DNA from: a virus | Virus record (IMG/VR): IMGVR_UViG_3300032032_000015 | Span: 1 to 31,147 of that record | Direction: 5' to 3' (one strand) | Length of the DNA stretch: 31,147 bases | In this document: positions 1 through 29,155 of the stretch, one piece after another | Layout: every line of letters starts with the position of its first letter | How positions within the stretch are numbered: position 1 is the stretch's first letter | Notes under the pieces: generated by a model | Told to the model about the DNA's origin: nothing | Databases searched by the model: none | What the model saw: the letters and a program-made list of their open reading frames with translations, nothing else | Position numbers and translations under genes: made by a program

Positions 1-3000
1 TCTATTTTTCTCCTCTTCTTCTTCATCATCGTTAAATAACATCGCGAATAAAGTTTTCTGAAGAGCGTGGAAAATCAAATTCTGCATTGTAGTATAATAT
101 ATAATTTGAGATAAATGACTTAAATCACTTTCTCTTTGAGTCATACCAGGAATTTTTCTTCTATTGTATAAATTCTGAACCGCTTTTTTAGTTTTTCTAT
201 TATACTGCATGGTAACATTTTGAAACGATAATATAACACGTCCACCACCACCAGCTTGTTGTTGAGATATTTTACTAGGATTACTAGATTGCTGAGTTTC
301 TTCTGCTATTTTATAAAAATCAGCAAACGCTTTTGTTTCAGCTTCTGCTTTAGTTAGACCTTGTTTCTCATATGTTTTTACTCTATTAATAAAGAAAGAA
401 GCTCCACCTGTTGCTATAGCTAAAGTATCCATTATTCTAGTAATAACAAAACCTTTATCTAATAAATAGGAAATCATACCTTGCATTCCTCCTCTCTTAG
501 CTGCGGCAGCTAATTCAGCTTCGTTAACATTTATCTTTAATCCATCTCGTCTATTAACCAAGTAATCAGAGTTCATTAATTTAATTACTGTAGGTATCCA
601 ATCCGCGCTTGCAAAAGCTTTACCAGCCGCAATCAAGTTATTATCACCCCAATTTATAAAGTTAAGAGCAGAAGTTAACTGTAATAATCCTGATCTAGTA
701 TTTAAAAACATTACTGCACCAACAGATCCATTTAACCAGTTCAACATTAAATCTACTGGTCTACTACTTCCAACAGGTCTATTACTACCAGATTTCATTC
801 TTCGCATAGAATCTTCTAATGCTTCTCTAAATCTACTACCATATAAAGCCTCGATTTTATACATGTTTTCATCAGTAAATATAGCATCCATATTAGCTTC
901 CCATTCAGCCAACATTTTACTTCTTAGGCCTGTATCAATAGATCTTTCTATATCTGTTGCTATCGTCCCACCCTGCCAATTATCTCTTGGTTTAGGATAT
1001 TTCTCTGTTCTTTGAATTAATAAAATTTCATCAGCAAAAACATTTAATTCACTATCTGCTTCCACAGCTTTAATTAATCTAGCTTGATCAACCTTAGATA
1101 AGCCTGGAATTTCCATTCCTTGTTTGTTCCATATATAAACTCTCACTGCGTGAGATTTAGTAAAAGGTCCTACACCTATCTCAGCTTGTAAAGGATTAGA
1201 AAAGCTTATCTTACCACTACGTAAAGAAGGAAATTTACTAACTAAAGCATTAAAATCATTAGCCGCACTAACCTTAGCTGATATTAATTCTTGCTCTGCT
1301 TTATTATAAGGATCAATTAAATTTTCATGTATCCACTCTAAATGTTGTGTTCCTTTATCGCCTTTTCCTGCAAAACTATACATTAAACCTAAAAAATCAT
1401 CAGCTGAAGGAGTAATAGTAAGGGTTCTTTTTATTCCTTTCCATAATCCTTTATCTTTTTGTTGACCTTCTAATTGAGCTCTAGCTTTTGAATAAGATTT
1501 AAATTCTTCTTTACCAGTAGTCTCTTCCAGCATTCTATTAAATTCAACACTTAATTTTTTACGTTTACTAGACTTAGCTTGTTGAACTTTAGATTTAACA
1601 TCTACTTGATCTAATATTTGTTTAACTGCTTTTACGTTTTGTATAGCATCATCCGCAAAATAAAAATCATTATATCCTTCTTTAGTTTTATCTAATACCC
1701 ATCTAGCTTTAGCTTGAGGACTTCCGTCTTCTAATCCAGTTATATTTTCCATAGGTATATTTAAACCTATACCGTCTAAAAACATTTTAATTCCTGGTGC
1801 TGAAGCTTGTGGTCTTGCTGTTAATATAAAGATATCTTTACCTCCAAATTTCTCTTGTCTTTTTAAAGCAAGATCTGCTAATGGTCCTTTTTGAGCGTTT
1901 TTAACGTCTTCAAATTGTGAAAAATCAAATGAAGCTCCCATTTCTTCTAAATCTACAGCTCTCTCTGCAAATTCTGCTGGAGTTAATTCCATAGTAGCCT
2001 CATCCATGCTCCCTGGAGCATAATAAGGCATGTTAACGATAACTTTTTCTTTTGTCTTAGCTATTGTATCATCAAAATCAAAAACACTTATACCTTTTCG
2101 TTTAGAAGATTTACCTAACGCTAAAGCTTTAGTAGTTAAAGAATTCTTCATAGTATCCATAACTTCTTGACCAGTCATATTCGTGTCCATGATGGTTGGA
2201 GCTAATTTAAGAGAAGTAAATTTAACCCTAGCATTTTTAGCTATATTAACTGGAATAGAAACTTTTAAGTGTTCTTGAGCTTTCTTTAAACTAATTTCGC
2301 CTTTAACAACAGCCATTACTAATTCATTTTGATAATGTCTTAAAGATGAATTTTGAGCCTGAATAGAATTTAAACCTAAACCCATTTCGGTTTCTACTAA
2401 AATTTTTCCTGTAATCGGATCTATAAGAGTGTTTAAATTTATTCCTGCAGCTGCGAATCTAGCTAAACCTATGTGGTCATCTAAAATCGTAGTGCCATCT
2501 AATATAGTGGCTCCATACCCTTCATTATCTAATCTCCAATCATCAAGTTTAGAAATTTGAGTTTGGTAATAATTTTTATCAATACCTTTTAAAACTTTAT
2601 CTGTATGATCATATTTAATACCCCATAATATACTAGCTCCAATATATGAAGCTGGAGGATTGTGTTCTTCACGGAATTTTCTCCCATCACTATATTTCTT
2701 ACCTTTACCATAATCAAACCTTTTAGAAACTCCTTTAAAACCTGCGGCTATTTTTATTAAACCTCCAGTAGCTTGATAGGAAGCTGCAACTAAAGGGATT
2801 AAGTTTTCTAAAGGAACCTTTAATTCATTGTGGGCTTTATCTAAAATCTTTACATAAAGTCTTAATGCTTCTTTATTAGCATCTAATTGAGGTTTATTAT
2901 CTTTTAAAAACTTTTTACTAATTCTTTTATTTGGTATCTCTATTCTTGCACCAATTTTATTACGGATTCTAAATTTATTTAATTTTTTATTAAGAGGTAG

Positions 3001-6000
3001 ATTATTATATTTTTCCGATTCTTTAATTAAATTTTCATAAGCAGGATCTGATTTACCATAGTAAACTCCAGTGTTAGGTAAAAACTTTCCTTTATTTATT
3101 CCTTTAAGACCAGCTGCTTGTGTACCAGCTTTGGCCCAACCACCATTTTTTAATTTATAAAACTTACTTACGCCTGGATCATTTTTGCTATATTTCTTAC
3201 CAGTTTTTGGATTATGGGTTTCTAATTTACCATTTTTAAACTTACCATATTCTCGCGCTCTTCCAAAATTCCCTAGGCCAGAGGCTATTAAAATACCAGT
3301 TCCTAATTGTCCTCTATTTACTAACTCAATATCTCTTTGATAAAGATCCTCTAAATCTTTTTCTTTAACCGAAATTTTAACGTATTTATCATCTAATATA
3401 AGAGCTGCAGCATGGAAATCTCGTGCTTGACCAAGTTTTATTAAATTATTATTTTGATTAGAAGTTACTGGTTTACTACGAGAACTAGCTTTACCGGTTA
3501 TATCTAAAGAAGCATCTTCTTTATTTCGTTGATTTAATTGCTGTGCAATATCATCTAAATAATTTTCTGCTAATTCTATTCTTAAATCTTCTACTTGTTG
3601 TTCCTGTAAATCTTTAAGATTTTCAACCTTATCTATCCTTTGATTAGGAACTTTTTTTAATTTATCTAATTCAATTTTTTGTTTAGCTTCTAAAGCTTTG
3701 ACTTTTTCATCAAAACTAGGGTCTTTTAAAGACAGAGTATCAGCAATTTTAGACATGTATTCTTTATTGTCTTTCAATTTGCTAATATTTTCTACCATTA
3801 AACCCTCTGTAAGTAAACTAAAAAGAGATTGTGATTTTTTCTCATCAGATTTAAAATAATCCTTCATTGCTTGTTTCGAAGGTTTTTTCATTTTATATTG
3901 ATAAGAACCAGGAGAAGTTTTCTTTCCTTTTTCGTCTACTTTAGTTTCTGCAATTCTTCTAACTTTCTCAACTTTAAATAAATCTTTAAATCTTCTTTTA
4001 ATAGTAGAAATAGGAATAATAGTATTCAATCCTTCATCTACTATTTTATCTACAAATTTATTATAGGATTCACTACCAAATTTTCCAATACCTTTAGGAG
4101 TAATTTTTACAACCTTACCGGTTTCATCTTTTATTTTTTGCTCGCCTTTTAATAAAGCTCTATACGTTTTATTCTTGCTGGCAGCTATAAGGGATTTAGC
4201 TACTTTAATAGGATTTACACTTCCTACCATAGCATTTAAAATATCTTTCGAAACACCTGTCCATCGTCCTTGAGTATTTTTACCTCCTAAAATATCAGTT
4301 AATATTTCTCCAGTTATAATATTTCTTACTGAAGGTAAAGTACTTGGAGTTTTCTTTGGTCTACTTTTGTCTTGTTGACTCGGAGCATCAAAATCTTTTT
4401 GAGTTGAAACTTCAGGAGAAATACCTTTTTCAGTTAAAACATCTTGACTAACTTGTTGTTGTTTTCTTTTCCATTCTGCGGTTAATTTACTACCAACTCT
4501 ATCTCCCATTATATTATAAAGATAATTAGAGACACTTTGTTTTTGTCCCGTTGTAGGATTAATTTCTTTATAATTTTGCATTATACTTTCAAATTCTCCT
4601 CCTATTAAAGAGACAGCTTCTTTTTTATCAATCTGATTCCATGGAACTTTATTTTTTCTAGCAGATTCTTCTAATGCAGCTAAACTAGTTGCAACATATT
4701 GTTCATATAATGTACCTAAATCTTCTCCTAATGTGTTTTTATCTTGTTGATATTGCTTAGTTAATTTATCTAAAAGCTTCCCATCACTTTTTATAGAGCT
4801 TTTTCCAGATATTTGATCTCCTGCTTGCTTTTCAATAATACTACTTATAGTACTTTGACTTTGTTTTCCTTTACCTAAATTCTTTCCTATACCAATAGTA
4901 GATTTTCCACTAGCAAGGTTTCTAAATGTTTTATTAAGAGCTTTACCTTCTCTACTAGCTTTAGCATAATCTTTAACAAAATTAAATACATCTTTACCAG
5001 TTCTAAATCTTCTATTAATTCCTAGTCTTCCTAAGATATTTCTAACTATATTACCAATTTTATCTCCCCAACTCTCATTTAAAGTAATCTCTCCATTAAT
5101 AAGAGCATCAGCTAAGAAAGTTAAAGCTTCTTCATATTGATCTTCAACAGGTTTGTTTTTATATAACTCATATCTTTCTTTAAGAGATTCACTCATAAGA
5201 CCATCGGTATCTATTTGTTCTAAATAATTTAACAAAGCTTTACCCATAGCTGTGGCTGCTTGCGGATTGTTTTTTACAGTTTGGAATAAAACAGCATGTA
5301 AAAACTCGTGATCAGCGACCGCGATATCTCTTAGGTTTCTAGATTTCGCCTCATTTACTACTATTAGTTGTTCTCCTGTCTCCTCATTTTGAAAAATAGT
5401 TCCTGTATCTGTACTTTCTGATACCTTATTCCATTTTCCAGATTCATTCTGTTTTTTAATAAAATTTTCAGCTCCTTTATTAGTTTTGAAACTACGCATT
5501 TTTACTAGTCCATTACTATCATCTACTAATAACTTTACTCTAGCAACTTTTTTATTGATTGCTTCTTGTATTGCTAAATCATTAATTTGATCAATAACTT
5601 TTTTTAGTTCTTCTACAGCATCTGCGGCTAACTCAGGGCCTTCGTTTTCAATTTCATTTTCTAGTTCTGCTTTTTTATTAAGTAAATCAAAGGCTTTGTT
5701 TTTGGCTTCAGCGCTAAAATGAAATGGAAGTTTAAGTAAAGTATTTCTTTCATTAGATAGGTTCTGAAGTTTTAATTGACGTTGATCGTTGTCTATTAAT
5801 CCTTTATTAAAATCATCTTCAATTTGTTTTTCTTTTTCTTTAAAACTAGTTTGGATTTTTTTATATAACTTAGGATCTTTAATATTCATTCTAGTGCTAA
5901 TTACTAAATCTTTTATAGAAGTAATTGTACCAGATACAGCTCCACCAAGACCAGTCATACTCCAACCACCTACAAATCCTTCACCCATAGCATTAACATA

Positions 6001-8295
6001 TTCCATAGCGTTGAACTTTCCTTTAGTAAACTGCTCTATCCCAGTTTGTAAACCTTCAGTTCCCCCTTCTACTAATCCAGCATGGAGTTTATAAATATAA
6101 GAATTACCGTATTGTTTTAAGCCTTGTCTTATATTTCCTTTCATCATCTCTTTAAGACCACTAAACGCGTATTTAGATTGTTTTAATATAAATCCAGCTG
6201 AAGCATATTCTGCTCCTGCGATAGCAGTTCCCGCTATCATACTACTACTTAAAATCCTATCTACCATTGTTGGATTAGACTCCATCCACTCTATTATTTG
6301 TTCTCCTGATAATTGCTCTAATGGAACACCTAAGGATTCTGCGGCTTTGGTTCTTAATCTATCACTCGCTATACTTCCTCCCTCCATAGCTATAGTATAC
6401 AACCCATATGTCATTCTAGTTGCTACCATATAAGGAAGTTGTTTTAATATAACTTCAGGTATAAATAAAGCCGCATCAACTAGATTTCCTTTTCCAATAG
6501 CATTCCAAAAATCAGTAAATTCTCTAGTGTCCCAATTACCTTGTTTCGCTTCTTTATCTATTACTTGTCCGTACCATTTTGCTGCATCTTCAGTAAAGCT
6601 AGTTATTAATTTTTCTGCATTTATTTTAGCATCATAAAATCTCATTTCTCTCCACTCGCCATCTCTACCTTTGTGAATAGGATTACCTAATTCACTAAAT
6701 CTTTTCCATTCTCCTTTATTATTTTGATAATGAGTTGGTCTAATTTCTCCTGTTATAGTATTGTAAAATACTGGAGTATCCTCTCCTTTAAATAAAAGAT
6801 GTTTTTTAGATTCTCTTTCTTCAACATCAGCGGCAAAAGGAAGTTCACCTGGGCCTATACTATCTAGTTCTTCTTGAGATAAAACCCAATCACTTAAATC
6901 AGTCATGGTATCCGCAGCTCGATTAAATTTTAAAGCTTCTATATGTTTATCAAATTGTCCTAACATTTGTAAACCATATCTCATAGAGCCTTCAAGATTA
7001 GCTTCTAATCCAAAACTTCTTAAAACATCATCAAAAGGTCTTAATCTTTTGTAAACAGTATTTTCTAATAATACATCTGAATTAAGACCTAATCCTAAAT
7101 CATTAATAGCACCAGGTTCAGCACTCCATATTTTATCCCACATCTCAGAAACATCCATAGGTGACCCATCATCATTGAATAAACTATTTTCGTCTATTAT
7201 TTTTTCTCTATTTTCTTTTTTTATAACCTCTTCTATAAAAGGATTAATCATATTAGAATATTGTCCTTCCCATCTTTCTACTCTATCTTGAAAAGCGGGG
7301 TCAGCTAAAATTAATTTATTAGCAAATACAGAGTATTCATTTTCTATTTCTGCTATTTTATCCCAATATCCTATATCAAAAGACCTAAAATATTTACCTT
7401 CAACTATAAAAGGATCTAGTTTTTTAACTAATTCCGCTTTTTTAGCATCTAAAAGAGCTGTGTTTTTATTTAAAACTGATTCTTGAATGTTTCTAATAAA
7501 AGGATCGTTATCAAGGAAATTATTGAATAATTTTTTACCATAATTTTCTCCGTCTTTAACATTGCTCCAGTCTATATTGTTAGGAGTAGTAAATTCCGTT
7601 GATTCTACTGTATTTTTAAGCTCTTTTGCTATCTCTAGATTTAATTTTTCATTTCTTTGCTCAGGAGTATCAATACCAGCATCATTTACTCTTTGAATTT
7701 GTTGGTCTACAGTAAGAGTTAACATTTCTCCAGCTATTTTACTATCTCTATCCTCTGTAGTATAGTCTTCAGTAGGATTAATAGTAATATTACTAAGATC
7801 TGGATTTTCAATATCTCTATCTACTTCGGATGTTGATTTAGGTACCATTGTACCCGGTACGAAGGTTTGTACATCTCCTGATGCATCTACCTCACTTAAA
7901 GGACCATCTATATCTCCTTGATCATATCCAATGTCTACTCCACTATTTTGTAACCCTGTAATATAAGTTTGATAATCTCCATTAGCCGCAACCCATCTAT
8001 TATAATCTTCAACAGGACCTCCATTTTGTAAAATTAAATCAGGATTGTCAAGATACTGTTGAATCTCCTCTTTTTTAAACTTTACTCCATCAATTATTAC
8101 ATCATCAGATTTTTTTGGACCTATTACAACTGGTTTTACACCATCTGTAGCAACTCCAACTAAAACCTCTTGTTCTGACATAAAATCTAGTTCAAGCTTC
8201 GCAAGTGCATCATTGATTTCTTGTTCGGTTTTATTAGCTTTTTCAAGCCTAGCACGTAACGCCGCTTTTTTCTCTTCTAAGGTCTTTTCAGCCAT
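1..8295 (-). CDS. Giant multidomain virion/polyvalent protein (C-terminus cut by window edge)
   Basis: Reading the minus strand from ATG at 8295 (MAEKTLEEKKAALRARLEK) gives 2765 codons without a stop, still open at position 1. Visible parts: a charged N-terminal half; a hydrophobic, Gly/Ala-rich segment at about residues 595-795; coiled-coil-like charged stretches at about 800-900; a zinc-metallopeptidase motif HEFLH at 996-1000 with a possible third ligand E1055/E1056 in YEEALTFLADAL; an unassigned region with EHNPPA at 1877-1882; a HAD phosphatase-like domain at about 2066-2230 (VFDFDDT with D2073/D2075, ILTARP with T2159, K2196, FADD with D2215/D2216); and an Arg/Asn-rich C-terminal region with SALNFINWGDNN, ending in an acidic run. 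Zn-peptidase plus HAD plus such a C-terminus is the make-up of phage 'large polyvalent proteins'. Its place last in the late cluster suggests an internal, ejected virion protein. Function is inferred; the frame and motifs are seen. It starts 10 bases after the preceding stop. Confidence 0.9.
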   Translation of the reverse strand, partial: MAEKTLEEKKAALRARLEKANKTEQEINDALAKLELDFMSEQEVLVGVATDGVKPVVIGPKKSDDVIIDGVKFKKEEIQQYLDNPDLILQNGGPVEDYNRWVAANGDYQTYITGLQNSGVDIGYDQGDIDGPLSEVDASGDVQTFVPGTMVPKSTSEVDRDIENPDLSNITINPTEDYTTEDRDSKIAGEMLTLTVDQQIQRVNDAGIDTPEQRNEKLNLEIAKELKNTVESTEFTTPNNIDWSNVKDGENYGKKLFNNFLDNDPFIRNIQESVLNKNTALLDAKKAELVKKLDPFIVEGKYFRSFDIGYWDKIAEIENEYSVFANKLILADPAFQDRVERWEGQYSNMINPFIEEVIKKENREKIIDENSLFNDDGSPMDVSEMWDKIWSAEPGAINDLGLGLNSDVLLENTVYKRLRPFDDVLRSFGLEANLEGSMRYGLQMLGQFDKHIEALKFNRAADTMTDLSDWVLSQEELDSIGPGELPFAADVEERESKKHLLFKGEDTPVFYNTITGEIRPTHYQNNKGEWKRFSELGNPIHKGRDGEWREMRFYDAKINAEKLITSFTEDAAKWYGQVIDKEAKQGNWDTREFTDFWNAIGKGNLVDAALFIPEVILKQLPYMVATRMTYGLYTIAMEGGSIASDRLRTKAAESLGVPLEQLSGEQIIEWMESNPTMVDRILSSSMIAGTAIAGAEYASAGFILKQSKYAFSGLKEMMKGNIRQGLKQYGNSYIYKLHAGLVEGGTEGLQTGIEQFTKGKFNAMEYVNAMGEGFVGGWSMTGLGGAVSGTITSIKDLVISTRMNIKDPKLYKKIQTSFKEKEKQIEDDFNKGLIDNDQRQLKLQNLSNERNTLLKLPFHFSAEAKNKAFDLLNKKAELENEIENEGPELAADAVEELKKVIDQINDLAIQEAINKKVARVKLLVDDSNGLVKMRSFKTNKGAENFIKKQNESGKWNKVSESTDTGTIFQNEETGEQLIVVNEAKSRNLRDIAVADHEFLHAVLFQTVKNNPQAATAMGKALLNYLEQIDTDGLMSESLKERYELYKNKPVEDQYEEALTFLADALINGEITLNESWGDKIGNIVRNILGRLGINRRFRTGKDVFNFVKDYAKASREGKALNKTFRNLASGKSTIGIGKNLGKGKQSQSTISSIIEKQAGDQISGKSSIKSDGKLLDKLTKQYQQDKNTLGEDLGTLYEQYVATSLAALEESARKNKVPWNQIDKKEAVSLIGGEFESIMQNYKEINPTTGQKQSVSNYLYNIMGDRVGSKLTAEWKRKQQQVSQDVLTEKGISPEVSTQKDFDAPSQQDKSRPKKTPSTLPSVRNIITGEILTDILGGKNTQGRWTGVSKDILNAMVGSVNPIKVAKSLIAASKNKTYRALLKGEQKIKDETGKVVKITPKGIGKFGSESYNKFVDKIVDEGLNTIIPISTIKRRFKDLFKVEKVRRIAETKVDEKGKKTSPGSYQYKMKKPSKQAMKDYFKSDEKKSQSLFSLLTEGLMVENISKLKDNKEYMSKIADTLSLKDPSFDEKVKALEAKQKIELDKLKKVPNQRIDKVENLKDLQEQQVEDLRIELAENYLDDIAQQLNQRNKEDASLDITGKASSRSKPVTSNQNNNLIKLGQARDFHAAALILDDKYVKISVKEKDLEDLYQRDIELVNRGQLGTGILIASGLGNFGRAREYGKFKNGKLETHNPKTGKKYSKNDPGVSKFYKLKNGGWAKAGTQAAGLKGINKGKFLPNTGVYYGKSDPAYENLIKESEKYNNLPLNKKLNKFRIRNKIGARIEIPNKRISKKFLKDNKPQLDANKEALRLYVKILDKAHNELKVPLENLIPLVAASYQATGGLIKIAAGFKGVSKRFDYGKGKKYSDGRKFREEHNPPASYIGASILWGIKYDHTDKVLKGIDKNYYQTQISKLDDWRLDNEGYGATILDGTTILDDHIGLARFAAAGINLNTLIDPITGKILVETEMGLGLNSIQAQNSSLRHYQNELVMAVVKGEISLKKAQEHLKVSIPVNIAKNARVKFTSLKLAPTIMDTNMTGQEVMDTMKNSLTTKALALGKSSKRKGISVFDFDDTIAKTKEKVIVNMPYYAPGSMDEATMELTPAEFAERAVDLEEMGASFDFSQFEDVKNAQKGPLADLALKRQEKFGGKDIFILTARPQASAPGIKMFLDGIGLNIPMENITGLEDGSPQAKARWVLDKTKEGYNDFYFADDAIQNVKAVKQILDQVDVKSKVQQAKSSKRKKLSVEFNRMLEETTGKEEFKSYSKARAQLEGQQKDKGLWKGIKRTLTITPSADDFLGLMYSFAGKGDKGTQHLEWIHENLIDPYNKAEQELISAKVSAANDFNALVSKFPSLRSGKISFSNPLQAEIGVGPFTKSHAVRVYIWNKQGMEIPGLSKVDQARLIKAVEADSELNVFADEILLIQRTEKYPKPRDNWQGGTIATDIERSIDTGLRSKMLAEWEANMDAIFTDENMYKIEALYGSRFREALEDSMRRMKSGSNRPVGSSRPVDLMLNWLNGSVGAVMFLNTRSGLLQLTSALNFINWGDNNLIAAGKAFASADWIPTVIKLMNSDYLVNRRDGLKINVNEAELAAAAKRGGMQGMISYLLDKGFVITRIMDTLAIATGGASFFINRVKTYEKQGLTKAEAETKAFADFYKIAEETQQSSNPSKISQQQAGGGGRVILSFQNVTMQYNRKTKKAVQNLYNRRKIPGMTQRESDLSHLSQIIYYTTMQNLIFHALQKTLFAMLFNDDEEEEEKNR

Positions 8296-8305
8296 ATGAT
8301 TTTAT

Positions 8306-9880
8306 TTAAATTACTGGAGGAGGTGGTAAAACTGGAGCCGCTGCGTCAGCTTCTACTGCTAATTCTTCTTCTTCTTCTTCTTCAATTTCCATCGGAATAT
8401 TTTGATAATAAATTATCATTCCTGCTTGCCATTCTTTAATACCTAAATGAACTCTATAGAATTCTGGAATAGGCATATCAAACTCATTAAGATGATCTAT
8501 AATTAATTTATCTCCTTCATCTGAAGTTAAATATCTTTTAATAAAAGTGGGTTGATTACTATATGAAAACCCTTCTTGTAATTTTCTTGTTAAACTGTTT
8601 TCAGTTAATTGAAAAAAGAACCATGCTTTCTGAGCATCTAACATACTAATAGGAGTTTTAGATGTACCTATCATACTCATTTTATACCTATTACCTTTCC
8701 AACCTGCTTTTTCTACAGGACTAACTGAATTATAAGTAGCATATTCTCTTCCTGTTAAAGGTTCAAAAAATCCTGCAGGTAAATCTATTTTGAAATTATT
8801 AGTAGAATAAGCATATAAGATTCCAGGATTTCCACTTCCTACAGCAAATAATCCTTCTAAAAATCCGCTTTTCTCTCCTGTATATGTTACATTACTATTA
8901 ATAGCTTCAGTGTTAACAAATCTCATTTCGTTTTGTTGAACAACTTTGTCATCTTCTTCGCCTTTTATAACTTCTATAAATGTATCTCCTAAGTTGTTAG
9001 CATCTTCTTCTTCATCACCAGTTGGCATGTTTCCTCCTAAAAAGAATTGAGGTTGAATATTTCCTTCTATTTCAATCCCAGCGTTAGTCCATGCTGTTCC
9101 TACATCAAAAGGTGATAAACTTTCACTAATATATATACTTAAAAAATTATCTTCTTTTATTTGATTAGAATCAACATCTGCCTTAACAATATAATAAGGA
9201 GTATTTTGCATTAACATTATATTTTTTCCTTCTCGTACATCATTCGTTATATAAAGTTGAGATTTAAAATGTTTTTGAAAGATATCACTAAACATATTTA
9301 TAGCAACTGTTTGAGTAAATACACTTTTTTCTCCTTCATCATCATAATAATATGATTTATCTACTTTTACATCAGGAGTATAATCAAAACAATTTCCCCA
9401 AGCTAAAGCCATTAACACACTTAAATCCATTTCTCTTTCATCTACTCCATTAAAATTTTTCTTTGATAGACTAGCTATAAAAATAGGTAAATTTTTAGGT
9501 AAAACATCTTCTACTGCTACCATTAAAGCTCCTCCTAATTCTTCAATTTCATCTAAACTCTTCCAATATCTTTCAATTTTCTGAGTCATTTGCTTTATCT
9601 CCTGTTGAGGCATGTTTTGAGCATTAGATTTTAATATAGTCTGCATTTGTAAAATACCTCCTGGTTCTTCTAATTCTCTAATTTTGTCTTTAACAATTTT
9701 TTCATTCAACTTAGGATCTTCATAAGGATTATCAGTATTAGGACCATTTACAAAACTTCTATATTGAAGACTCAACCTCATTAATAGATTGCTTATGTTA
9801 GCTTTTCTTAATACAGAAACCGAATGTAACATTTCTTGATTAGTATTGTGAGCTTGTAATAATTTTAACGAGTTTTCCAT
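8306..9880 (-). CDS. Probable internal virion protein, 524 aa
   Basis: No family is recognised. The protein has an alpha-helical N-terminal part (to about residue 130, rich in Leu, Gln and Lys), then a mixed, probably beta-rich middle with many aromatic residues. The tail is low-complexity: a run of Glu (EIEEEEEEELAVEADAAAP) followed by a proline run. There is no signal peptide or clear membrane segment. ATG at 9880 is preceded directly by the TAA of the upstream gene in the context TAAAATG, and the giant protein starts 10 bases downstream. It sits between an Ala-rich putative ejection protein and the giant protein, the position T7 gp15 holds between gp14 and gp16, so an internal core or ejection role is a reasonable inference. 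A tail or baseplate-like structural role is the alternative. The acidic tail could mediate contact with a basic partner or with the portal tunnel. Confidence 0.75.
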   Translation of the reverse strand: MENSLKLLQAHNTNQEMLHSVSVLRKANISNLLMRLSLQYRSFVNGPNTDNPYEDPKLNEKIVKDKIRELEEPGGILQMQTILKSNAQNMPQQEIKQMTQKIERYWKSLDEIEELGGALMVAVEDVLPKNLPIFIASLSKKNFNGVDEREMDLSVLMALAWGNCFDYTPDVKVDKSYYYDDEGEKSVFTQTVAINMFSDIFQKHFKSQLYITNDVREGKNIMLMQNTPYYIVKADVDSNQIKEDNFLSIYISESLSPFDVGTAWTNAGIEIEGNIQPQFFLGGNMPTGDEEEDANNLGDTFIEVIKGEEDDKVVQQNEMRFVNTEAINSNVTYTGEKSGFLEGLFAVGSGNPGILYAYSTNNFKIDLPAGFFEPLTGREYATYNSVSPVEKAGWKGNRYKMSMIGTSKTPISMLDAQKAWFFFQLTENSLTRKLQEGFSYSNQPTFIKRYLTSDEGDKLIIDHLNEFDMPIPEFYRVHLGIKEWQAGMIIYYQNIPMEIEEEEEEELAVEADAAAPVLPPPPVI

Positions 9881-9881
9881 T

Positions 9882-10805
9882 TTAACTTAACTTCTTAAAT
9901 TCAACATCTATTTTAGAATAATCAACTCTATCAAAACCGTCTGAATGTTTTATAACCGCATAAGAAGGAATTTCGTCTGACATGACTCCTTGATAAACTC
10001 CTGTTCCAAATAGTTTGTTTATATATTCAAAACTATAAATATTTAATCCTTTATTAGATTTTCCTATTAATTTTATGCTATGTTTTCCTTTTCTATCAGA
10101 AAAAGCACCAGCAATATTTCCAACACTTTGAGCAGTTTGTCCCCATGCTTGAGTTTCTGCTAGATTAGCATTAGCTTCTGCTTCCGCATAACCATCCATC
10201 ATACCCGCAGCTCTTGCCATATCAGCATTAGTTCTAGCTTCTTCAACAGCAAACATATATTCCTCTCCTTTAGCAGCAAAATCTTGTTCTCGTGATGCTT
10301 GACCAATAGTAAGATCTTGATAACGCGTTGTAGCGGCAACTTTTTGTGTCTGCATTGCGGCTTCTCCTTGTGCTCTAAGCTTAGCATTACCAGCTTCTTG
10401 TTCTTGAATACTCGCAGCAATACCTTTTTTACTTTTCAATGCCATCATAGCTAGAGCTGTAGCACCACCCGCTGCCATTCCAGTAGCTTCCATTGTATCT
10501 AAAGTATTAGCCAAACTTATATCGGCTTCTTCTGCTTGCATCTCTGCCGCAGCAGTTGAAACTTGAAGTTGATTATAAGGATTTGTTATTTGTCCTGATA
10601 AATCACTAGCCAAACCTGACAAATCAGTTATTCCTGCGTAAGGATTAACGATATCTTGACGGTTTTCTTTTAAACTACTTAATTCAGTTTCCCATCTCTG
10701 CTTTTCAGTTTTTGCATCGTTCGCAGCTTTTTTAGCTTTATTTGCTGCTGCGGCTCCTGCTCCAACTGCTATCGCGGTTGCTGCGACTGCTGTTACTACT
10801 GCCAT
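9882..10805 (-). CDS. Ala-rich virion protein with C-terminal S74-like chaperone domain
   Basis: The N-terminus (MAVVTAVAATAIAVGAGAAA) is strongly hydrophobic and Ala/Gly-rich, consistent with a membrane-inserting segment. Residues 25-230 are helical and rich in Ala, Gln and Glu. Residues 236-307 look like the endosialidase-type intramolecular chaperone (Peptidase S74): SDRKGKHSIKLIG, then IYSFEYINKLFG and VYQGVMSDE. In that family the protein cuts itself before or near the SD pair with help from a lysine, releasing the chaperone after trimer folding; S236 and K241 are the matching residues here. The usual SDRRLKK is SDRKGKH here, so self-cleavage is uncertain. Similar small Ala-rich proteins with this ending occur in marine phages. 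Size, hydrophobic start and gene order suggest a gp14-like ejection protein. The upstream stop and this ATG share the TAAAATG context. Confidence 0.75.
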   Translation of the reverse strand: MAVVTAVAATAIAVGAGAAAANKAKKAANDAKTEKQRWETELSSLKENRQDIVNPYAGITDLSGLASDLSGQITNPYNQLQVSTAAAEMQAEEADISLANTLDTMEATGMAAGGATALAMMALKSKKGIAASIQEQEAGNAKLRAQGEAAMQTQKVAATTRYQDLTIGQASREQDFAAKGEEYMFAVEEARTNADMARAAGMMDGYAEAEANANLAETQAWGQTAQSVGNIAGAFSDRKGKHSIKLIGKSNKGLNIYSFEYINKLFGTGVYQGVMSDEIPSYAVIKHSDGFDRVDYSKIDVEFKKLS

Positions 10806-10806
10806 T

Positions 10807-11217
10807 TTATTCTATATTTTTAATTATTTCATAAGAAGGATCTGTGTCAACAGTCCAACCTAGTTTTTTATGTGTTTCAATTAATCCTTTATTTCTACCA
10901 ATAGAAAATATTTGTTTTTTCCCTTCTTTTTTACACACTTCTTCTGCGGTATTTATTAAGAGTTCTATAGCTTCTTTTCTATCTTTATCTCTATATTCGG
11001 GGTTAGATACAATCCATTCTAATAATACTCCACTAGAATTAGTAAAATATAAAAATCCTGCGACTATTAAAACGTCTTCTTTGTATACCATTAAACCACC
11101 TGTTCCATTGTTTGGTAAAAATTCTTTGGGAGGATTCTGCCATTTAGGCCAAGTATCCCACCATTTAACTAAAATATCCCAATCAGATTCTTTTAGTTGT
11201 CTAATATTTAATTTCAT
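10807..11217 (-). CDS. GNAT-like acetyltransferase fold protein
   Basis: This 136-aa protein has the layout of a GNAT N-acetyltransferase: MKLNIRQLKESDWDILVKWW at the start (strand 1 and helix 1), then GGLMVYKEDVLIVAGFLYF (strands 2-3), LLEWIVSNPEYRDKDR (strand 4 and the acetyl-CoA loop), a long helix with KEAIELLINTAEEVCKKEG, and IFSIGRNKGLIETHKKLGW (strand 5 with the common 'hxKLGF' ending). The canonical Q/R-x-x-G-x-G/A loop is not intact; YRDKDRKEA stands in its place, so acetyl-CoA binding may be weakened or altered. It lies between the nozzle genes and the internal proteins, in the same operon, with spacing of a few bases. In family terms it could modify a virion or host protein; the target is not visible from sequence. 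The fold call is moderately firm and the activity uncertain. Confidence 0.65.
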   Translation of the reverse strand: MKLNIRQLKESDWDILVKWWDTWPKWQNPPKEFLPNNGTGGLMVYKEDVLIVAGFLYFTNSSGVLLEWIVSNPEYRDKDRKEAIELLINTAEEVCKKEGKKQIFSIGRNKGLIETHKKLGWTVDTDPSYEIIKNIE

Positions 11218-11222
11218 ATAAT

Positions 11223-12632
11223 TTATCTATTACTGTAGTTACTACCTACTGCAAATAATTCTTTAGGTCCGGTAGGATCCGTAGTATTATCTGTTTGTAG
11301 TTTCACCGTTGCATAAAATGCTTTGATACCAGATTCTTGCGCAGCATCTGGAATTACTTCCATAGCTCTTACGGTACCATTATTTTTTAGAGCTGCATAA
11401 TAAGTGTTTTGTTTTCTATCAAAACCCGCTCTATATTCTATTTGTGATACAGGATCTGTATAAAATCCTTCATCATAACTATATATTCTTTCTACACTAT
11501 CTGTATAACTTGTATTTCCTAAAATAGGCTCTTGAGGATTAGAATCTACCCCTGTTACATCACTTGTAAAACTACTAACAGGTACTTCCCAACCATTACT
11601 TCCTTCATAACTAATAGTTTTAAAAGTTTTCATTCTTGTAGGTTGAGGATTAAATACAAATGTTACACTAGAACTATATTGTTCTCCATAAAAATTATTA
11701 TATAGAGGATTTATATAGTGCTGGTAAATTCCATTCTTTTTAAAACTTATAAATCTTCCTAAACAACTAGTAGTTAACCATGGGGTATAGTCAAAGAAAC
11801 TAGTCCACCCGTTTATTCTTTCATCATATGCTATAGTGGTTTGAGGATTTCCTAAAGTAATAACGTAGTTTTTATTATAAATATCCCATCCCCCAGTTAT
11901 TTCTCCATCTTGAGATAAAGTATCTCTAAAATAATCTATCATTCCAAAATTAGAAATTTGTTCTATACCACTAGCTCCTAGTTTTAACACTGCAGATTGG
12001 TCTTTATCAGTCCAGTATTTATTATAACCATGTATAGCAAAAGATCCTGGGTTTTTAGATATTCCATAATTTCCTTGAAAAGGAGTTATTTGTCCTATTA
12101 CTAAAGTTCCAGTAGTAGTTAATTTAGAACCATCCGCGGTATAAATAGCGTCTTTATCTATCAAAGCATTATTAACTTTCTTTTCTTGGAATATTAACAG
12201 ATTAGTATTTTCTGCATATAATTTTTGTATACTACCTGACCTTGGGTCTACAGTTCTACTTATAACTTCACCTATAGGAAATTGATTTGTGTTGTTTATT
12301 CCTGTACGAGAATTAAATATTCCTGAATAAATTAATCTATTAGTAAACACTTGTTGTTGAGGACTATCTTCTACTGAATAAGCTTTAATTCCATAATCTG
12401 TTGATACATTGTTATAACCTCCTCGTATTCTAGCTTCTTCTATATACCAATCTTCATATACATTTGCATCTATATAACCATCACCTGTTGCAGGATTTGG
12501 TGTACCATTAGTGGTACCTCCACTATTAACACCTACGGGTGCGGGAGGATCGAGCTCAGTGTATTGAGTAGCGTTCTTCAATCTCTTTAACCAAAAGGAG
12601 TTAAAATATGATAGTTCTATAGTAGTAGCCAT
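11223..12632 (-). CDS. Tail nozzle/muzzle companion protein (beta-propeller-like)
   Basis: The 469-aa protein is rich in beta-forming and aromatic residues. Motifs such as YGIKAYSVEDSPQQQVFTNR, IYSGIFNSRTGINNTNQFP, TGTLVIGQITPFQGNYGISK and YDERINGWTSFFDYTPW are typical of the second half of tail tubular protein B / nozzle proteins of podoviruses and of crAss-like muzzle proteins. It starts about 30 bases after the 1648-aa protein, whose N-terminus matches the first half of such nozzles. My reading is that the nozzle is made of two polypeptides here. A Pro/Gly/Thr-rich linker (about residues 28-50) near the start may join it to its partner. Location would be the distal end of the short tail. 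Homology is recognised by pattern only; a separate tail-fibre adaptor is the alternative. Confidence 0.7.
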   Translation of the reverse strand: MATTIELSYFNSFWLKRLKNATQYTELDPPAPVGVNSGGTTNGTPNPATGDGYIDANVYEDWYIEEARIRGGYNNVSTDYGIKAYSVEDSPQQQVFTNRLIYSGIFNSRTGINNTNQFPIGEVISRTVDPRSGSIQKLYAENTNLLIFQEKKVNNALIDKDAIYTADGSKLTTTGTLVIGQITPFQGNYGISKNPGSFAIHGYNKYWTDKDQSAVLKLGASGIEQISNFGMIDYFRDTLSQDGEITGGWDIYNKNYVITLGNPQTTIAYDERINGWTSFFDYTPWLTTSCLGRFISFKKNGIYQHYINPLYNNFYGEQYSSSVTFVFNPQPTRMKTFKTISYEGSNGWEVPVSSFTSDVTGVDSNPQEPILGNTSYTDSVERIYSYDEGFYTDPVSQIEYRAGFDRKQNTYYAALKNNGTVRAMEVIPDAAQESGIKAFYATVKLQTDNTTDPTGPKELFAVGSNYSNR

Positions 12633-12661
12633 ATATTATTATTACTTGTTTTTACTTATTA

Positions 12662-15600
12662 TTACACCGGTCCTGTACAATCTATACATGGGCTTCCTGT
12701 TGCTCCTGTAGTGCCGTCATAAAAATCTACCGAGAACCGTGAATCTCCCGGATAAGCTCCACAACCAGGTCCTGATATTCCATTGTTTCTTACTACATAT
12801 TCACCTGGAGTATCAAATTGATAGGTTATAAAAGAACTTGTAGCTCCTGTTCCTCCTACTGTTAAGTTGTTCCAACTTCCTACTGTTACTCCAAATTTAT
12901 CTATAGCAGGTTGCCAACTAGCAGCTGCACTAGTTCTGTAAATAATAGTATAATATGTTTGAAAATCAACTGGTAATAAAGTAGCGTTTTTATCTAATTT
13001 AGCAGTAATTACTAATTCACCTTGAGTTAAAGCTGCATTACTAAAAGCTGGTGGTGGGTCTGGAAAACAATAAGTTGGAGCTAACCAACCCGCTATAGCT
13101 TCTGTTAATACATTATAATATCTTATTCCTGCTCCTCCTGTCACAGGGTAACTAGTAATACCACTTCCAGCTGGTGCTGGTAATGTACCAAAATAAGAAT
13201 CACTTCCACTTAGTGTAGCATTATTTACAAAATTACTTGCTCCAAAGAATACTTCTAAAGGTAAACCAGTACCTGAACTACATGTAGTATCTAACCCTGC
13301 CATTGCACTTGTAGGTCCATAACATATTGCTTGTTCTGTATCAGGTATACCCACAACTATATCTACATCTATACTGGTAGATAAACTATTAGGACTAGAT
13401 ACACACGTTATAGAAGCATCGGTTAACGTAGCTTCAATTGTATAAGTGCCGTTTATTAAAGAACCACCCGTTATAGTAACCACACCTGTATAAGGGTCTA
13501 TACTAAATACCGCTGTAGAGCCCACTGGAGCTGATGTGGTAGCAAGAGTCCAACATAATTCTGCTGTATTATTAACTAAATCTATAGAACCGTTTTGTCC
13601 AATAAATGTCCCAATATTAGTATTACCTATTATAAAACCTATATTAGAAGATCCACCTGCTTGTCTAGTTGTAGGATCTAAAGCACTATAAAATCCTGCA
13701 GCTGGAGGTCCAGCTTGATCTACTACAGGCGCTATATTTGTTAAAGTAATAGTGGTTAGATTATTTAAATCATCTACATATAAACCTGCTCCAGATGTAG
13801 TTCTAAAAGAAATTGTCCATGAATCTGCTTTTGTACCTGAAGGTGTTCCATACCAAAATTCTTGATTAGTTTCTATATCAAAATCTCTATTAGGGGTTCC
13901 AGCTGGAGTATCTACTAAAACAAATGGAGGTGTAGGTGTAGTAACATCATTTCCATTATTATCTAATATCTCGGTAATTACTGCTCCTACTCCTGCAGGA
14001 CCATCTAAAGTTATCCAATTACCTGAAGAATCAGTAAATTTAAAATCAGTATTAGTTTTAAAACCTATTACATTATCTTCAGCTACTACTCCCATAGTTG
14101 AGGTAGAACTTAAAACACCTGCATATTCATCTAACACTTGATCATTTAAAAATACTAAATTACCTGTAGTAGTAGTTTCCCAGAATATATCTATTAAACT
14201 TTCTACGGGTTCTGTTTCTGACACGCTTAAATAAGGTACCATACACGCAGTAGCACCTCCTAAAACTGTAGGATATCCTTGATTAGTAACATATGCGCCT
14301 AAGGTATTCAATACTGGGGAGGTTGGTTCTGTTAATTGAGGTTGAGGTTCTTCCGCCCCTACTTTAAGACCAGCACATAAAGGATTTTGTTCTACATTAT
14401 AAAAACTTTGTTCCGCTCCAGCAGGTCCCCAAGGAATTTGAGGAAATGTAACTACAGGTGCACCAGCGTTATCAAACACTCTACTAACGTTATTAAATTC
14501 TCCTTTAGTAGCATTAGGATCAAAGGGAGAATTTGCTAATTCTAAACCACCTGAACCTACTGAGCCTATAGTTGTAACTTCATCTGGTTTTCTACCCGGG
14601 AAATATTGAGTATTCCACGGATTAAGTCTAGAATTATAATATTGTACCGTTGGTAATTGTTTAGCAATAACAGAAGGATTATTTACTCTTCCAAATAACT
14701 TAACAGAAGCAGAAAATTCATTTTGTAAAGGTCCTACTTCATTTAAATCTCTTGGGACTTTATTTATATTATCACTTAACAAAATAGAAAAAGCTACTCT
14801 TCCTCTATCAATAACGCTTGTTACGGGATAACCAGATACAAAACCAGGTAAATAAACATTATAATATTCTTGTTCTTGTTGTTTTACTACAAATTTATAC
14901 GATCCCCAACCTAATACGTTAACTGGATTAACAATTACTTCAATTTGCGCTCCACTACCTGTACCTCCAGTCACATCTAAGCGCTGTCCTGTAGCATAAC
15001 CAAATCCACCATCTAAAATTTTTCCACCTGTTATTCCTCCACCAGCATCTATTTGAGTAACTTCAAAACTAAAGTTTTGTCCCAAACCTAAATCTCCAGC
15101 GGGATAAACCACCCCACATACATCTCCTAAAGTGTATAATGTTCCTGCACTATCAATAGTGAAAGAATCTATGCTAGTATTTTTATAAGACTTATATAAT
15201 CCTGGTTCTCCAGTTTGTTCATTCTTGGTAACTTGAGTTATACCATTATCTACAACCACTCTTAATACACTACCCAACCATTTATAAGTAATTACATCAC
15301 TAATAGGATTATTAACTTCTTCCCATTCTTTATAAGGAACATAAATAGTAGAACCATTTTTAGTAGGATCATCATCATTTTTAGATAATATAACACTTGA
15401 TTGTCTTCCATATCTATCTGCTAATACCCATCCTACTTGATAATTTCTATTTTGCTTAACGGTGTGATTAGGATATTGAGCATAATTATTAAAGTTTAAA
15501 GACTTATCATTGTAAGTTACTTGATAATCTAAAGTACTGGGAGGAGTATGATTTTGGGTATAATTTCCATAAGTAATTCTACTTCCAATAATTTCTTGAG

Positions 15601-17608
15601 CTAAAGCTTTTACTGGTACTTTATCATAAACTCTAGTATCTTGATTAGAAGGAAGAGTTTTAAATGGTTTTATAGATTTATAATCAAAAGTATAATACCA
15701 TTGAGTAGTAGAAATAGAAGGTATACTAGTAATTTCTCCTATTGAAATTGCACTAGTATCTATAGATTCTAATATTTTAGTAGATAATCCATCAGATTCT
15801 TTATATAAAATTTCTATACTATCTATTTGATAATTATCTCTTAAAGCCGCTAATGCTTCAGTAGAATTTAATCCATCATCAGGTAAAGGAATTTTTAAAG
15901 CTACTTGATCTACTCTATTTTCAAACCACTGCACAATTGTACTCGTATAAGAGTCTACCATATCTTGAGTACTTTCGTTAGGACCACCTCCAAAAAGACC
16001 ATTTTGTTTAGGTATAAAACATATTTGAGTAAAAGGAGCAGATAGTGAATATTCATTGTCTGCAAATTTAAATCTATAACTAAATCTTATAAATTTATCT
16101 TCTATAAAATCTGGATCACCAGTAAAACTATTATCAAAATTAGGATTTGCACTAACACTAATATCATCACCACCAGTTCCTACTGCGGTTGTAGTTATAT
16201 CTTTAGTTAATTGTATAGTTATACTAGTACCCGGAGTAATAGCATCAATAGCGAATATTCTTACATCATCAGCTATAGTAATTGAAGCATCTATACTAGT
16301 AACTAAATCTCCTACTTTAGGTGTGTATTGAGGACTAGGATCTGCAATTGTATTTATATAAGGATAATATAAAACAATAGGAGTACCAGCTGCTATAACT
16401 CCTACAGCTGTAGCTCCATCAAAAGTAGTATTAAATCCATTTTCTTCTAACCTCTCACTAGCATTTTCCATGGTAGTTCTAGAGAAAGTAATATCTATAG
16501 TACTAGGACTTACATATGTACCTGGAGTTTGCGCAACACTACCATCTTTAAAGTTATTGTAAATAGTAACTGAAACATTTGGATCAATTAAAATAACCTC
16601 CCATAATTCTTGAGCTAATTGACCTGGAAAACCAGTTACAATATCTCCCACTTGTATACCAGTAGTATCTGCCATGGTGAGAGTATAACCTCTTAATGTA
16701 GATTGAGCTCCTGCGGTAATTTCTAATATATTTTGATCTAATAATAAAGGAACTTCATAAGGATAATATTTACACACTGAAATTTGATCTTCATTTGTAT
16801 AATAATTAGGACACGCTATATTATTAGGATTAGCAGAGCTTACATTGATTCTTCTAGGTTGATTTCTATTATCTGTCCAAAATAATAAATCTTCTAATAA
16901 ATTAATTCCATAAATACGATTTTGTTGACTAAAATTTAACCAACTTCCTCTTACCAACAATGTTAATAACTCATCTTCAACACTATAACGATGTATAGTA
17001 TTAGCCCATCCTATAACCAATTTATCTCCAGGCCCAGTAAAAGCTCCACCATTTAATGCAATAGATTGACTTATTACTATATTAGTAGGATTTACCTCAA
17101 TTACTAATGGATCATTATCAGGAGGATTTCCAAGCCATTCACACCCTTGAACTAACATTCCTACTTCAATACCCAATACTTGTGGGTTTAATTGTAAACC
17201 TCCAGGACCCTCTGTCCATAAAGTAATAGTAGTACCACTTTGTAGAGCCGAACCACTATACGCTACAATATCTCTAGGTTGTTGATCAGTTCCTGTATAA
17301 CCAGTACTAAACACATATATTTCACCAGTAGTTTCATTCGTGTATTGTCCTATTACTTTACCTGTATATCCTAATCCTAAATTAGGTGCTACATTACCAT
17401 TATCATATCCAGTATTTAAATAAGCTGTTCCTAATCCATTTACCATTAACTGATTTCCAGGAATATTCTCAAATTCACCAACACTGGATCCTTCTGATCT
17501 ACTTATTTGTAGATTATTAGCATCTCTGTATTCGCCATTCGGTATTAATCTATCATCCAAGTCTTTATTCATCTTGGATTTTATAAAATTATTCCTTATT
17601 TCTGGCAT
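12662..17608 (-). CDS. Very large tail nozzle/muzzle protein with added surface domains
   Basis: The start MPEIRNNFIKSKMNKDLDDR followed by LIPNGEYRDANNLQISRSEG is a recognisable opening of nozzle (tail tubular B-like) proteins in marine and crAss-like podoviruses. FSYRFKFADNEYSLSAPF and NYQVGWVLADRYGRQSSV fit the same family. At 1648 aa it is far longer than T7 gp12 (about 800 aa). The extra length includes a Gly-rich repeat domain at about residues 810-892 (GGGITGGKILDGGFGYATGQ, then VTGGTGSGAQIEV) and an Ig/cadherin-like stretch near residues 1330-1420 (FSIDPYTGVVTITGGSLING). The C-terminal 250 residues hold several cysteines, ending GSPCIDCTGPV. It forms or decorates the tail tip, where the added domains could contact the cell surface. 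ATG at 17608 lies 3 bases after the upstream stop. The family call is good; the receptor role is inferred. Confidence 0.8.
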   Translation of the reverse strand: MPEIRNNFIKSKMNKDLDDRLIPNGEYRDANNLQISRSEGSSVGEFENIPGNQLMVNGLGTAYLNTGYDNGNVAPNLGLGYTGKVIGQYTNETTGEIYVFSTGYTGTDQQPRDIVAYSGSALQSGTTITLWTEGPGGLQLNPQVLGIEVGMLVQGCEWLGNPPDNDPLVIEVNPTNIVISQSIALNGGAFTGPGDKLVIGWANTIHRYSVEDELLTLLVRGSWLNFSQQNRIYGINLLEDLLFWTDNRNQPRRINVSSANPNNIACPNYYTNEDQISVCKYYPYEVPLLLDQNILEITAGAQSTLRGYTLTMADTTGIQVGDIVTGFPGQLAQELWEVILIDPNVSVTIYNNFKDGSVAQTPGTYVSPSTIDITFSRTTMENASERLEENGFNTTFDGATAVGVIAAGTPIVLYYPYINTIADPSPQYTPKVGDLVTSIDASITIADDVRIFAIDAITPGTSITIQLTKDITTTAVGTGGDDISVSANPNFDNSFTGDPDFIEDKFIRFSYRFKFADNEYSLSAPFTQICFIPKQNGLFGGGPNESTQDMVDSYTSTIVQWFENRVDQVALKIPLPDDGLNSTEALAALRDNYQIDSIEILYKESDGLSTKILESIDTSAISIGEITSIPSISTTQWYYTFDYKSIKPFKTLPSNQDTRVYDKVPVKALAQEIIGSRITYGNYTQNHTPPSTLDYQVTYNDKSLNFNNYAQYPNHTVKQNRNYQVGWVLADRYGRQSSVILSKNDDDPTKNGSTIYVPYKEWEEVNNPISDVITYKWLGSVLRVVVDNGITQVTKNEQTGEPGLYKSYKNTSIDSFTIDSAGTLYTLGDVCGVVYPAGDLGLGQNFSFEVTQIDAGGGITGGKILDGGFGYATGQRLDVTGGTGSGAQIEVIVNPVNVLGWGSYKFVVKQQEQEYYNVYLPGFVSGYPVTSVIDRGRVAFSILLSDNINKVPRDLNEVGPLQNEFSASVKLFGRVNNPSVIAKQLPTVQYYNSRLNPWNTQYFPGRKPDEVTTIGSVGSGGLELANSPFDPNATKGEFNNVSRVFDNAGAPVVTFPQIPWGPAGAEQSFYNVEQNPLCAGLKVGAEEPQPQLTEPTSPVLNTLGAYVTNQGYPTVLGGATACMVPYLSVSETEPVESLIDIFWETTTTGNLVFLNDQVLDEYAGVLSSTSTMGVVAEDNVIGFKTNTDFKFTDSSGNWITLDGPAGVGAVITEILDNNGNDVTTPTPPFVLVDTPAGTPNRDFDIETNQEFWYGTPSGTKADSWTISFRTTSGAGLYVDDLNNLTTITLTNIAPVVDQAGPPAAGFYSALDPTTRQAGGSSNIGFIIGNTNIGTFIGQNGSIDLVNNTAELCWTLATTSAPVGSTAVFSIDPYTGVVTITGGSLINGTYTIEATLTDASITCVSSPNSLSTSIDVDIVVGIPDTEQAICYGPTSAMAGLDTTCSSGTGLPLEVFFGASNFVNNATLSGSDSYFGTLPAPAGSGITSYPVTGGAGIRYYNVLTEAIAGWLAPTYCFPDPPPAFSNAALTQGELVITAKLDKNATLLPVDFQTYYTIIYRTSAAASWQPAIDKFGVTVGSWNNLTVGGTGATSSFITYQFDTPGEYVVRNNGISGPGCGAYPGDSRFSVDFYDGTTGATGSPCIDCTGPV

Positions 17609-22224: not shown

Positions 22225-22235
22225 TTTTCTAAATT

Positions 22236-23465: not shown

Positions 23466-23494
23466 AAAATATAATTAAATAGTTATTAATATTA

Positions 23495-29154: not shown

Positions 29155-29155
29155 T

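Follow-up and report, generated by a model that had tools for sequence, protein, structure and literature searches.

The ejection genes of phage T7 lie in one operon in the order small, medium, large (gp14-gp15-gp16), and the large protein is modular and includes an enzyme domain, as described in the available parts of PMC8954989. The virion RNA polymerase of phage N4, gp50, is an ejected protein of ~3,500 residues that bears an HExxH subdomain together with a large helical C-terminal part lacking known homologues (preprint PMC12633501, available parts). For PhicrAss001, cargo is stored in both head and tail, and ejection with partial unfolding has been proposed (PMC10172136, available parts). 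Polyvalent phage proteins, in the accessible portions of their description (Iyer et al. 2017, PMC5512222), are large and multidomain, adjoin virion genes, and combine a zincin-like peptidase with an unrelated enzyme domain under modular gain and loss.

Here we describe a giant gene in a virus record of 31,147 bases, the whole stretch of DNA analysed and hereafter called the window. The features of polyvalent proteins listed above are shared by the giant, which likewise joins several unrelated domains in one polypeptide adjoining virion genes, the general definition of the class; in contrast to the polyvalent proteins of PMC5512222 (accessible portions), records of its own family gave no match to PF18818 or LPD38. 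Its cassette has the gene order of T7, whereas the giant is ~2-fold larger than the T7 protein and has peptidase and phosphatase domains in place of the transglycosylase. The giant is like N4 gp50 in its HExxH region and its large helical C-terminal part, but shows no sign of a polymerase domain. PhicrAss001 resembles the window phage in its muzzle-type virion and, as proposed below for the giant, in large stored cargo proteins that are ejected according to the published model; its cargo differs, comprising gp45, gp46 and RNA-polymerase-associated proteins, with no peptidase in the available main text (PMC10172136). The HAD domain of the giant is similar to the T4 Pnkp 3'-phosphatase in motifs and predicted fold, yet it has no neighboring kinase domain and is part of a giant virion-type protein.

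The available main text of PMC5512222 makes no mention of a HAD or Pnkp phosphatase, and the accessible portions of PMC5512222, PMC10172136, PMC8776804, PMC7886860, PMC11590407, PMC12633501 and PMC8954989 describe no HAD/Pnkp-like polyvalent or ejection protein. Likewise, no polyvalent or ejection protein with such a domain was found described in the open-access literature, a body of text that leaves most subscription journals outside. While the kind of protein is already known, the family and its conserved domain order appear to be new. A reading of the window made earlier from its letters alone (the sequence-only reading) had suspected that the order was undescribed, and no description was found in the literature searched, to the extent that its text was accessible. 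Not noticed in that reading were the recurrence of this architecture across many contigs, the closeness of the predicted HAD fold to Pnkp-type 3'-phosphatases and the T7-like three-gene cassette.

The giant gene and its virion cassette

The giant frame contained no stop codon before the window end, and 2764 open codons would be expected by chance with a probability of ~10^-114, given the base composition of the gene. At a related locus, L003, which encodes a giant with 90% identity to that of the window, the whole gene measures 3052 aa and is followed by small genes downstream. Since residue 2765 of the window giant pairs with L003 residue 2771, the window giant is short by ~281 residues. A codon comparison with L003 yielded an overall dN/dS of 0.21, as expected under purifying selection. 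The improbability of the open frame and the dN/dS value indicate that the frame is a real gene, as the sequence-only reading had claimed in postulating an uninterrupted protein of at least 2765 aa. The ratio was ~0.09 across residues 2001-2750 and ~1.1 across residues 1-250 (window 7546-8295, minus strand). Synonymous divergence from L003 was low (0.08) in the latter stretch, a pattern that may reflect recombination in the recent past or a rapidly changing N terminus.

Read along the minus strand, the giant is the final gene of the virion cassette (Table 1). Within the virion module, the large terminase matched phrog_6681 (2.8e-160), the portal phrog_6547 (5.8e-146) and the structural protein, which is probably the major capsid protein, phrog_13704 (4.5e-89). 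The terminase (TerL) had matches in 87 of 50,697 phage records, namely 68 Flavobacterium, 15 Cellulophaga, 2 Tenacibaculum, 1 Maribacter and 1 unassigned. The Bacteroidetes-type podovirus virion module recognized earlier was supported. Two adjacent genes (11223-12632 and 12662-17608, minus strand) correspond to different parts of the 1474-position phrog_14478, as if a muzzle-type protein had been split in two.

The three last genes of the cassette follow the small, medium, large order of a T7-like ejection operon. In 55/55 loci the gene immediately upstream of the giant encodes 360-701 aa, and in 52/55 the second gene upstream is homologous to the 307-aa gene; 26 of these 52 homologues have a clear hydrophobic N terminus. 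By hhalign, the 307-aa gene product was related to phi38:1 gp99 (95%) and Panino 0072 (89%), and weakly to proteins of the elemo phage (21%) and MW202828 (12%). The 524-aa gene, for which the alignment held two relatives only, matched no isolate protein at >3%. None of the three cassette genes matched the T7 gp14/15/16 families in Pfam or PHROG, and such proteins diverge fast. Among family loci, 16 matches to the acetyltransferase-like gene fell three genes ahead of the giant; at the corresponding position, MW202828 carries a 136-aa gene named N-terminal acetyltransferase complex subunit.

Table 1. Features of the giant gene and of the virion cassette, in window coordinates; residues are those of the giant.
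Feature	Position	Strand	Remarks
Giant ORF	1..8295	minus	2765 codons from ATG at 8295; open at base 1, low end
Helical C-module, strongly conserved	1..1575	minus	residues 2241 to window end; extends further in L003
HAD phosphatase domain, Pnkp 3'-phosphatase-like predicted fold	1564..2103	minus	residues 2065-2244
'EH' domain, uncharacterised	2239..2916	minus	residues 1794-2019
Zincin-like metallopeptidase domain (likely)	5089..5520	minus	residues 926-1069; AF2 model m830208b1b581 residues 67-210
HExxH (HEFLH)	5296..5310	minus	residues 996-1000
N2 core, Gly/Ala-rich, weakly hydrophobic	5902..6240	minus	residues 686-798
524-aa gene, medium cassette member (gp15-like position)	8306..9880	minus	immediately upstream of giant
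307-aa gene, small cassette member (gp14-like position), hydrophobic N terminus	9882..10805	minus	phrog_6121 virion structural protein, E 8.4e-11
Acetyltransferase-like gene, inside virion cassette	10807-11217	minus	phrog_17252, 1.5e-35; Pfam Acetyltransf_1, E 0.029
Two genes, parts of phrog_14478 virion family	11223..17608	minus	shorter carries crAss muzzle C-terminal domain (crAss_MUZ_C, 1.1e-13)
Virion module: phrog_13704 structural protein, unmatched gene, portal, large terminase	20767..28099	minus	PHROG matches

Predicted domains of the giant protein

Searches of Pfam, PHROG and PDB sequences with the giant and its domain profiles returned nothing at E<=0.001, and neither did tblastn of the whole giant against phage records. 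The nearest weak match of the window giant, located where the HAD domain begins, was to phrog_1238, a phosphoheptose isomerase by name (E 0.0012), and the weak match lists for alignments A1 and A3 consisted largely of single-member matches. The sequence-only reading had named an HExxH metallopeptidase motif, a complete HAD motif set and a polyvalent-like C terminus, and both motif claims proved real. In 5000 residue shuffles of the giant, HExxH arose in 1.1% and a HAD-like spaced pattern in 0.02%, and the two never arose together.

The peptidase motif was conserved across alignment A1 (28 rows, namely the window plus 27 loci selected as HAD-positive from 63), with the first His in 26/28 rows and the Glu and second His in 28/28. 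A Glu at position 1056, downstream of the motif, was present in 28/28. In the AF2 model of this region, strands and helices follow one another as in a zincin core, and the zincin signature, HExxH plus a downstream Glu on a second helix, is present; pLDDT was 72-85 up to HExxH and 51-67 behind it. Of the 16 members in A6, the more alike of 28 peptidase rows, 6 matched Pfam Peptidase_M78 (best E 0.0018, the window member not among them) and 5 matched SprT-like, all weakly; A4 comprised 21 of 28. The structure prediction proposed as a check on the peptidase recovered the core order of a zincin, while the best zincin match in the fold list, lethal factor (LF), was the sole recognized one and reached only Z 6.2 (rmsd 4.9), below the trust level of Z 8. 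Lethal factor is also the example given for the N4 polymerase peptidase in the available text of PMC5512222. The model and the conserved residues indicate that this region is likely a zincin metallopeptidase. The Pfam check suggested at the same time went the other way: MPTase-PolyVal (PF18818) matched 0/28 records at E<=1, with control matches in 3/14 genomes, none over the cut-off, and LPD38 (PF18857) matched 0/22 own-family records at E<=1, with 0/14 in the control.

In the window giant, the HAD motifs are DFDDT (2073-2077), LTAR (2158-2161), K2196 and DD (2215-2216). Motif I was present in 35 of the 56 rows of the C-terminal alignment A2, each of which also had motifs II and IV, and motifs I, II, III-Lys and IV were invariant in A5, which comprises 28 of these 35 HAD rows. 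The fold comparison was run on the AF2 model of L003, to which the HAD region of the window is 94% identical. In VIA-align, the T4 Pnkp 3'-phosphatase (5uj0) ranked first (Z 12.6, rmsd 2.5, 126 residues aligned at 17% identity), bacterial Pnkp1 ranked second (Z 11.9), and all five top matches were Pnkp entries (Z 12.6-11.3). The first match outside Pnkp was at Z 10.7, with other HAD phosphatases below it. With Foldseek, neither AF2 model matched a PDB entry at E<=0.001, the long models yielding mostly low-probability matches. With motifs I-IV and a predicted Rossmann-like HAD fold both present, the domain belongs to the HAD superfamily as modeled, and the structure prediction check came out in favor of the HAD claim.

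Profile matches to individual members were more varied. DUF2608, a HAD-clan family, was found in 18/56 members. NCBIfam TIGR01664 (DNA 3'-phosphatase) matched 8/28 (best E 5e-4) and HAD-IA-v3 matched 13/28, while the window HAD domain itself had no NCBIfam match at E<=1. The polynucleotide kinase family phrog_415 matched 21/56 members (best E 3.6e-7), though not the window record; since it also matched in 14/14 control genomes, it is a broad rather than a specific model. There was no 5'-kinase domain next to the HAD domain, the sole Walker A-like string lying at the distant residue 1159 without a kinase family match. RNA ligase is the usual partner in RNA repair. RNA_ligase (PF09414) matched 1 of 51 records, which are fragmentary, and that one (L061) is without HAD; PF09511 matched neither family records nor controls.

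Three further regions of the giant are recognizable. N2 contains a hydrophobic stretch at residues 686-704 (mean 1.33). The EH domain was modeled at pLDDT 86-95 in most blocks, and its E1877 and H1878 were each present in 27/28 rows of A1. No family or solved structure matched it at a useful E-value; it may be a further, third enzyme. Assignment of EH as an HNH domain is a guess, as the matches (two members, phrog_5046 best E 0.086) were gone when EH was scanned alone. Against BFVD, the middle model had 2 matches at E<=0.001, both uncultured-virus proteins and one named UDP-N-acetylglucosamine kinase, and a third at E 0.0057 to an uncultured-virus protein named large polyvalent protein. As for the polyvalent-like C terminus, a strongly conserved module does exist there, whereas no Pfam or PHROG family matched it in the window giant.

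A modular family with kin in isolate phages

With the window giant as query, we recovered 63 loci among virus contigs, and the giants complete at both ends (n = 51) ranged from 2017 to 3198 aa. In blastp against the 63 giants, L003 counted, residues 1-550 of L003 were matched by no other giant, residues 951-1100 by 27-31 and residues 2251-2900 by ~60. A profile scan of public virus contigs with A2 detected 519 stretches encoding relatives, and the 80 highest-ranking ones were retained. The HAD profile had 463 relatives; among the best 80 of these, all placed by BLAST and many with frames ended by the fetched flank, the C-module followed in the HAD frame in 79 and HExxH lay upstream in frame in 64, and 6 were already in the first 63 loci by contig name. 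Only 5 of 50,697 annotated phage records were matched at E<=10 by tblastn with the HAD-plus-C segment of locus L021, in a collection from which records close to the window were possibly left out; two Gundel_1 records were the only clear matches (E 2e-4), and the other three were non-significant. A genome scan found 7 contigs with the family, all in mixed-assignment MAGs and 3 of them in two Flavobacteria-type MAGs, which may represent phage contigs in bins. This is a large, modular family of giants that is nearly without annotation.

Among 5'-complete giants (n = 55), HExxH was present in 50 and absent in 5, and HAD was present in 40 and absent in 15, with both present in 38; the 15 HAD-less giants keep the C-module. 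The C-module tree, like A2, excludes eight near-copies (L014, L017, L025, L026, L038, L053, L058 and L059). In this tree HAD presence requires 5 changes, at least 2 of them forced by well-supported branches, when L046, which starts behind the HAD position, is dropped, and 6 changes, 3 of them forced, when it is kept. On these sequence comparisons, HAD is a discrete module within the family giants. Extra segments that are alike by eye occur in L031 and L033 (middle region) and in L028 (in HAD, behind motif I), and their presence at differing places suggests a mobile module.

The annotated phage closest by TerL (63.6%), MW202828, has much the same gene order and, at the same cassette place, a 3859-aa giant with two HExxH sites (L066, 741-12320). 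Giants also occupy the window-like position in the Cellulophaga phages phi38:1 and phi40:1 (gp101 in each) and phi18:3 (gp123), in phi19:3 (gp129), in the Flavobacterium elemo phage (gp18) and in the Maribacter phage Panino (CDS0069). The Tenacibaculum phage Gundel_1 differs, its giant (gp074) lying before the terminase and not at the cassette end. According to the record notes, phi40:1 gp101 and phi18:3 gp123 were found by MS/MS proteomics; phi38:1 gp101 is 99.9% identical to the former, and phi19:3 gp129 is 94% identical to the latter.

By hhalign, the phi38:1, elemo, Gundel_1 and Panino giants have N2, peptidase or C modules in common with the window family. As hhalign probabilities, N2 scored 90% against phi38:1 gp101, 86% against Panino, 69% against elemo and 68% against Gundel_1; the peptidase module scored 88% against elemo gp18 and 41% against Gundel_1; and the C-module scored 96% against the Gundel_1 structural protein gp074. 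Six reversed giants used as controls all scored <1%. In contrast, no family module exceeded 3% in the MW202828 and phi19:3 giants, and a scan of six giants (those of Panino, Gundel_1, MW202828, elemo, phi38:1 and phi19:3) found HAD motif I in none. This pattern indicates that several isolate giants are kin by modules and that others have seemingly been replaced; exchange of giants seems to proceed at a much higher rate than that of the remaining cassette genes.

Two of the isolate giants showed additional similarities. In the Panino giant (W06, PP540027), a C-terminal portion annotated as a tRNA methyltransferase (28792-29250, minus strand) gave an LPD38 match below the cut-off (E 1.8e-5) in a scan of 6 isolate records. 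Residues 969-1825 of phi19:3 gp129 (L070) matched a Pseudoalteromonas phage protein named ADP-ribosyltransferase (E 6e-68) and a Pelagibacter phage putative structural protein (E 9e-13). As judged by such similarity, the C-terminal half of gp129 is a case of module exchange across phages of distant hosts.

Proposed role of the giant and competing explanations

We propose, at a probability of roughly 0.7, that the giant is a gp16-like large ejection protein and polyvalent effector of a podovirus of Bacteroidetes whose kin include Pervagoviridae, Pachyviridae and Elemovirus phages. In support of the ejection role, its place at the cassette end matches that of the MS/MS-noted giants of phi40:1 and phi18:3, and the N2, peptidase and C modules have profile links to isolate giants such as phi38:1 gp101; no proteomics of the window phage was found. 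Since the phi18:3 relative phi19:3 has no detectable module in common with the family, the support for packaging from phi18:3 is positional only. Ejection of the giant together with the DNA we infer by analogy, from the operon order in PMC8954989 and the crassvirus cargo model in PMC10172136 (available parts of each). As envisaged, the giant would very probably be stored in the particle and leave through the tail ahead of the DNA or along with it, and N2 could help it to cross the cell envelope or lodge there. The putative peptidase would then cut the giant into working parts, an idea that follows a proposal in the accessible text of PMC5512222, or would cut a host protein. On entry, the predicted HAD phosphatase would take 3'-phosphates off nucleotides or the ends of nucleic acids, and phage DNA or tRNA damaged by nucleases might thereby be healed early. 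Because it is retained where HAD is missing, the C-module probably does core ejection or DNA-handling work.

Delivery of enzymes is not the sole way to account for these domains. The giant might be a structural ejection protein only, with the peptidase and HAD acting phage-side, the former in self-cleavage before or during packaging and the latter as a scaffold, and nothing delivered. The P1 protein DdrB is reported to be cleaved prior to packaging (PMC5512222, available portions), and loss of HAD from 15 of 55 5'-complete giants with retention of the C-module fits such a role. Conversely, HAD-bearing rows keep the catalytic residues, and dN/dS is ~0.09 over that part of the protein, which argues that HAD is an active enzyme; we regard a purely structural role as rather unlikely. 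Far less probable still is that the giant is a virion RNA polymerase like those of phi14:2 or N4, with DFDDT derived from a crAss-like DxDxD site. Giant virion RNA polymerases do serve as cargo in crassviruses and N4 (PMC10172136, PMC7886860 and PMC12633501, available parts), and the window phage carries a crAss-type muzzle domain. DxDxD is nonetheless absent from the window giant and occurs with hydrophobic flanks in 1/55 giants, while DFDDT is accompanied by motifs II-IV and falls within a predicted HAD fold.

Action of the HAD domain on nucleic acid 3'-ends is proposed, with some uncertainty, because the fold neighbors of the model are Pnkp 3'-phosphatases. The domain could instead act on small molecules such as nucleotides or sugar phosphates, an alternative we take seriously while leaning against it. 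HAD-IA-v3 matches more members than does the DNA 3'-phosphatase model, other HAD proteins follow in the fold list only 0.6 Z below the fifth Pnkp row, and the RNA ligase partner is nearly absent. On the other side, the five best fold matches are all Pnkp, the first of them 1.9 Z above any other protein, and phrog_415, albeit a broad model, assigns polynucleotide kinase similarity to over a third of the members.

The furthest-reaching version of the ejected-effector proposal is that a lineage of Bacteroidetes-type phages injects a protein of 2,000-3,200 residues equipped with a ready 3'-end phosphatase and a self-releasing peptidase, which we consider doubtful. If true, breaks made by the host in phage DNA or in tRNA would be healed before phage gene expression, a pre-loaded repair counter-defence. 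Podovirus ejection proteins are poorly annotated, as illustrated by the 519 stretches related to the C-terminal part as against the 5 annotated records with the L021 segment. In this family, a virion position that is proven for relatives is tied to two predicted enzyme domains, and injected end-repair becomes directly testable.
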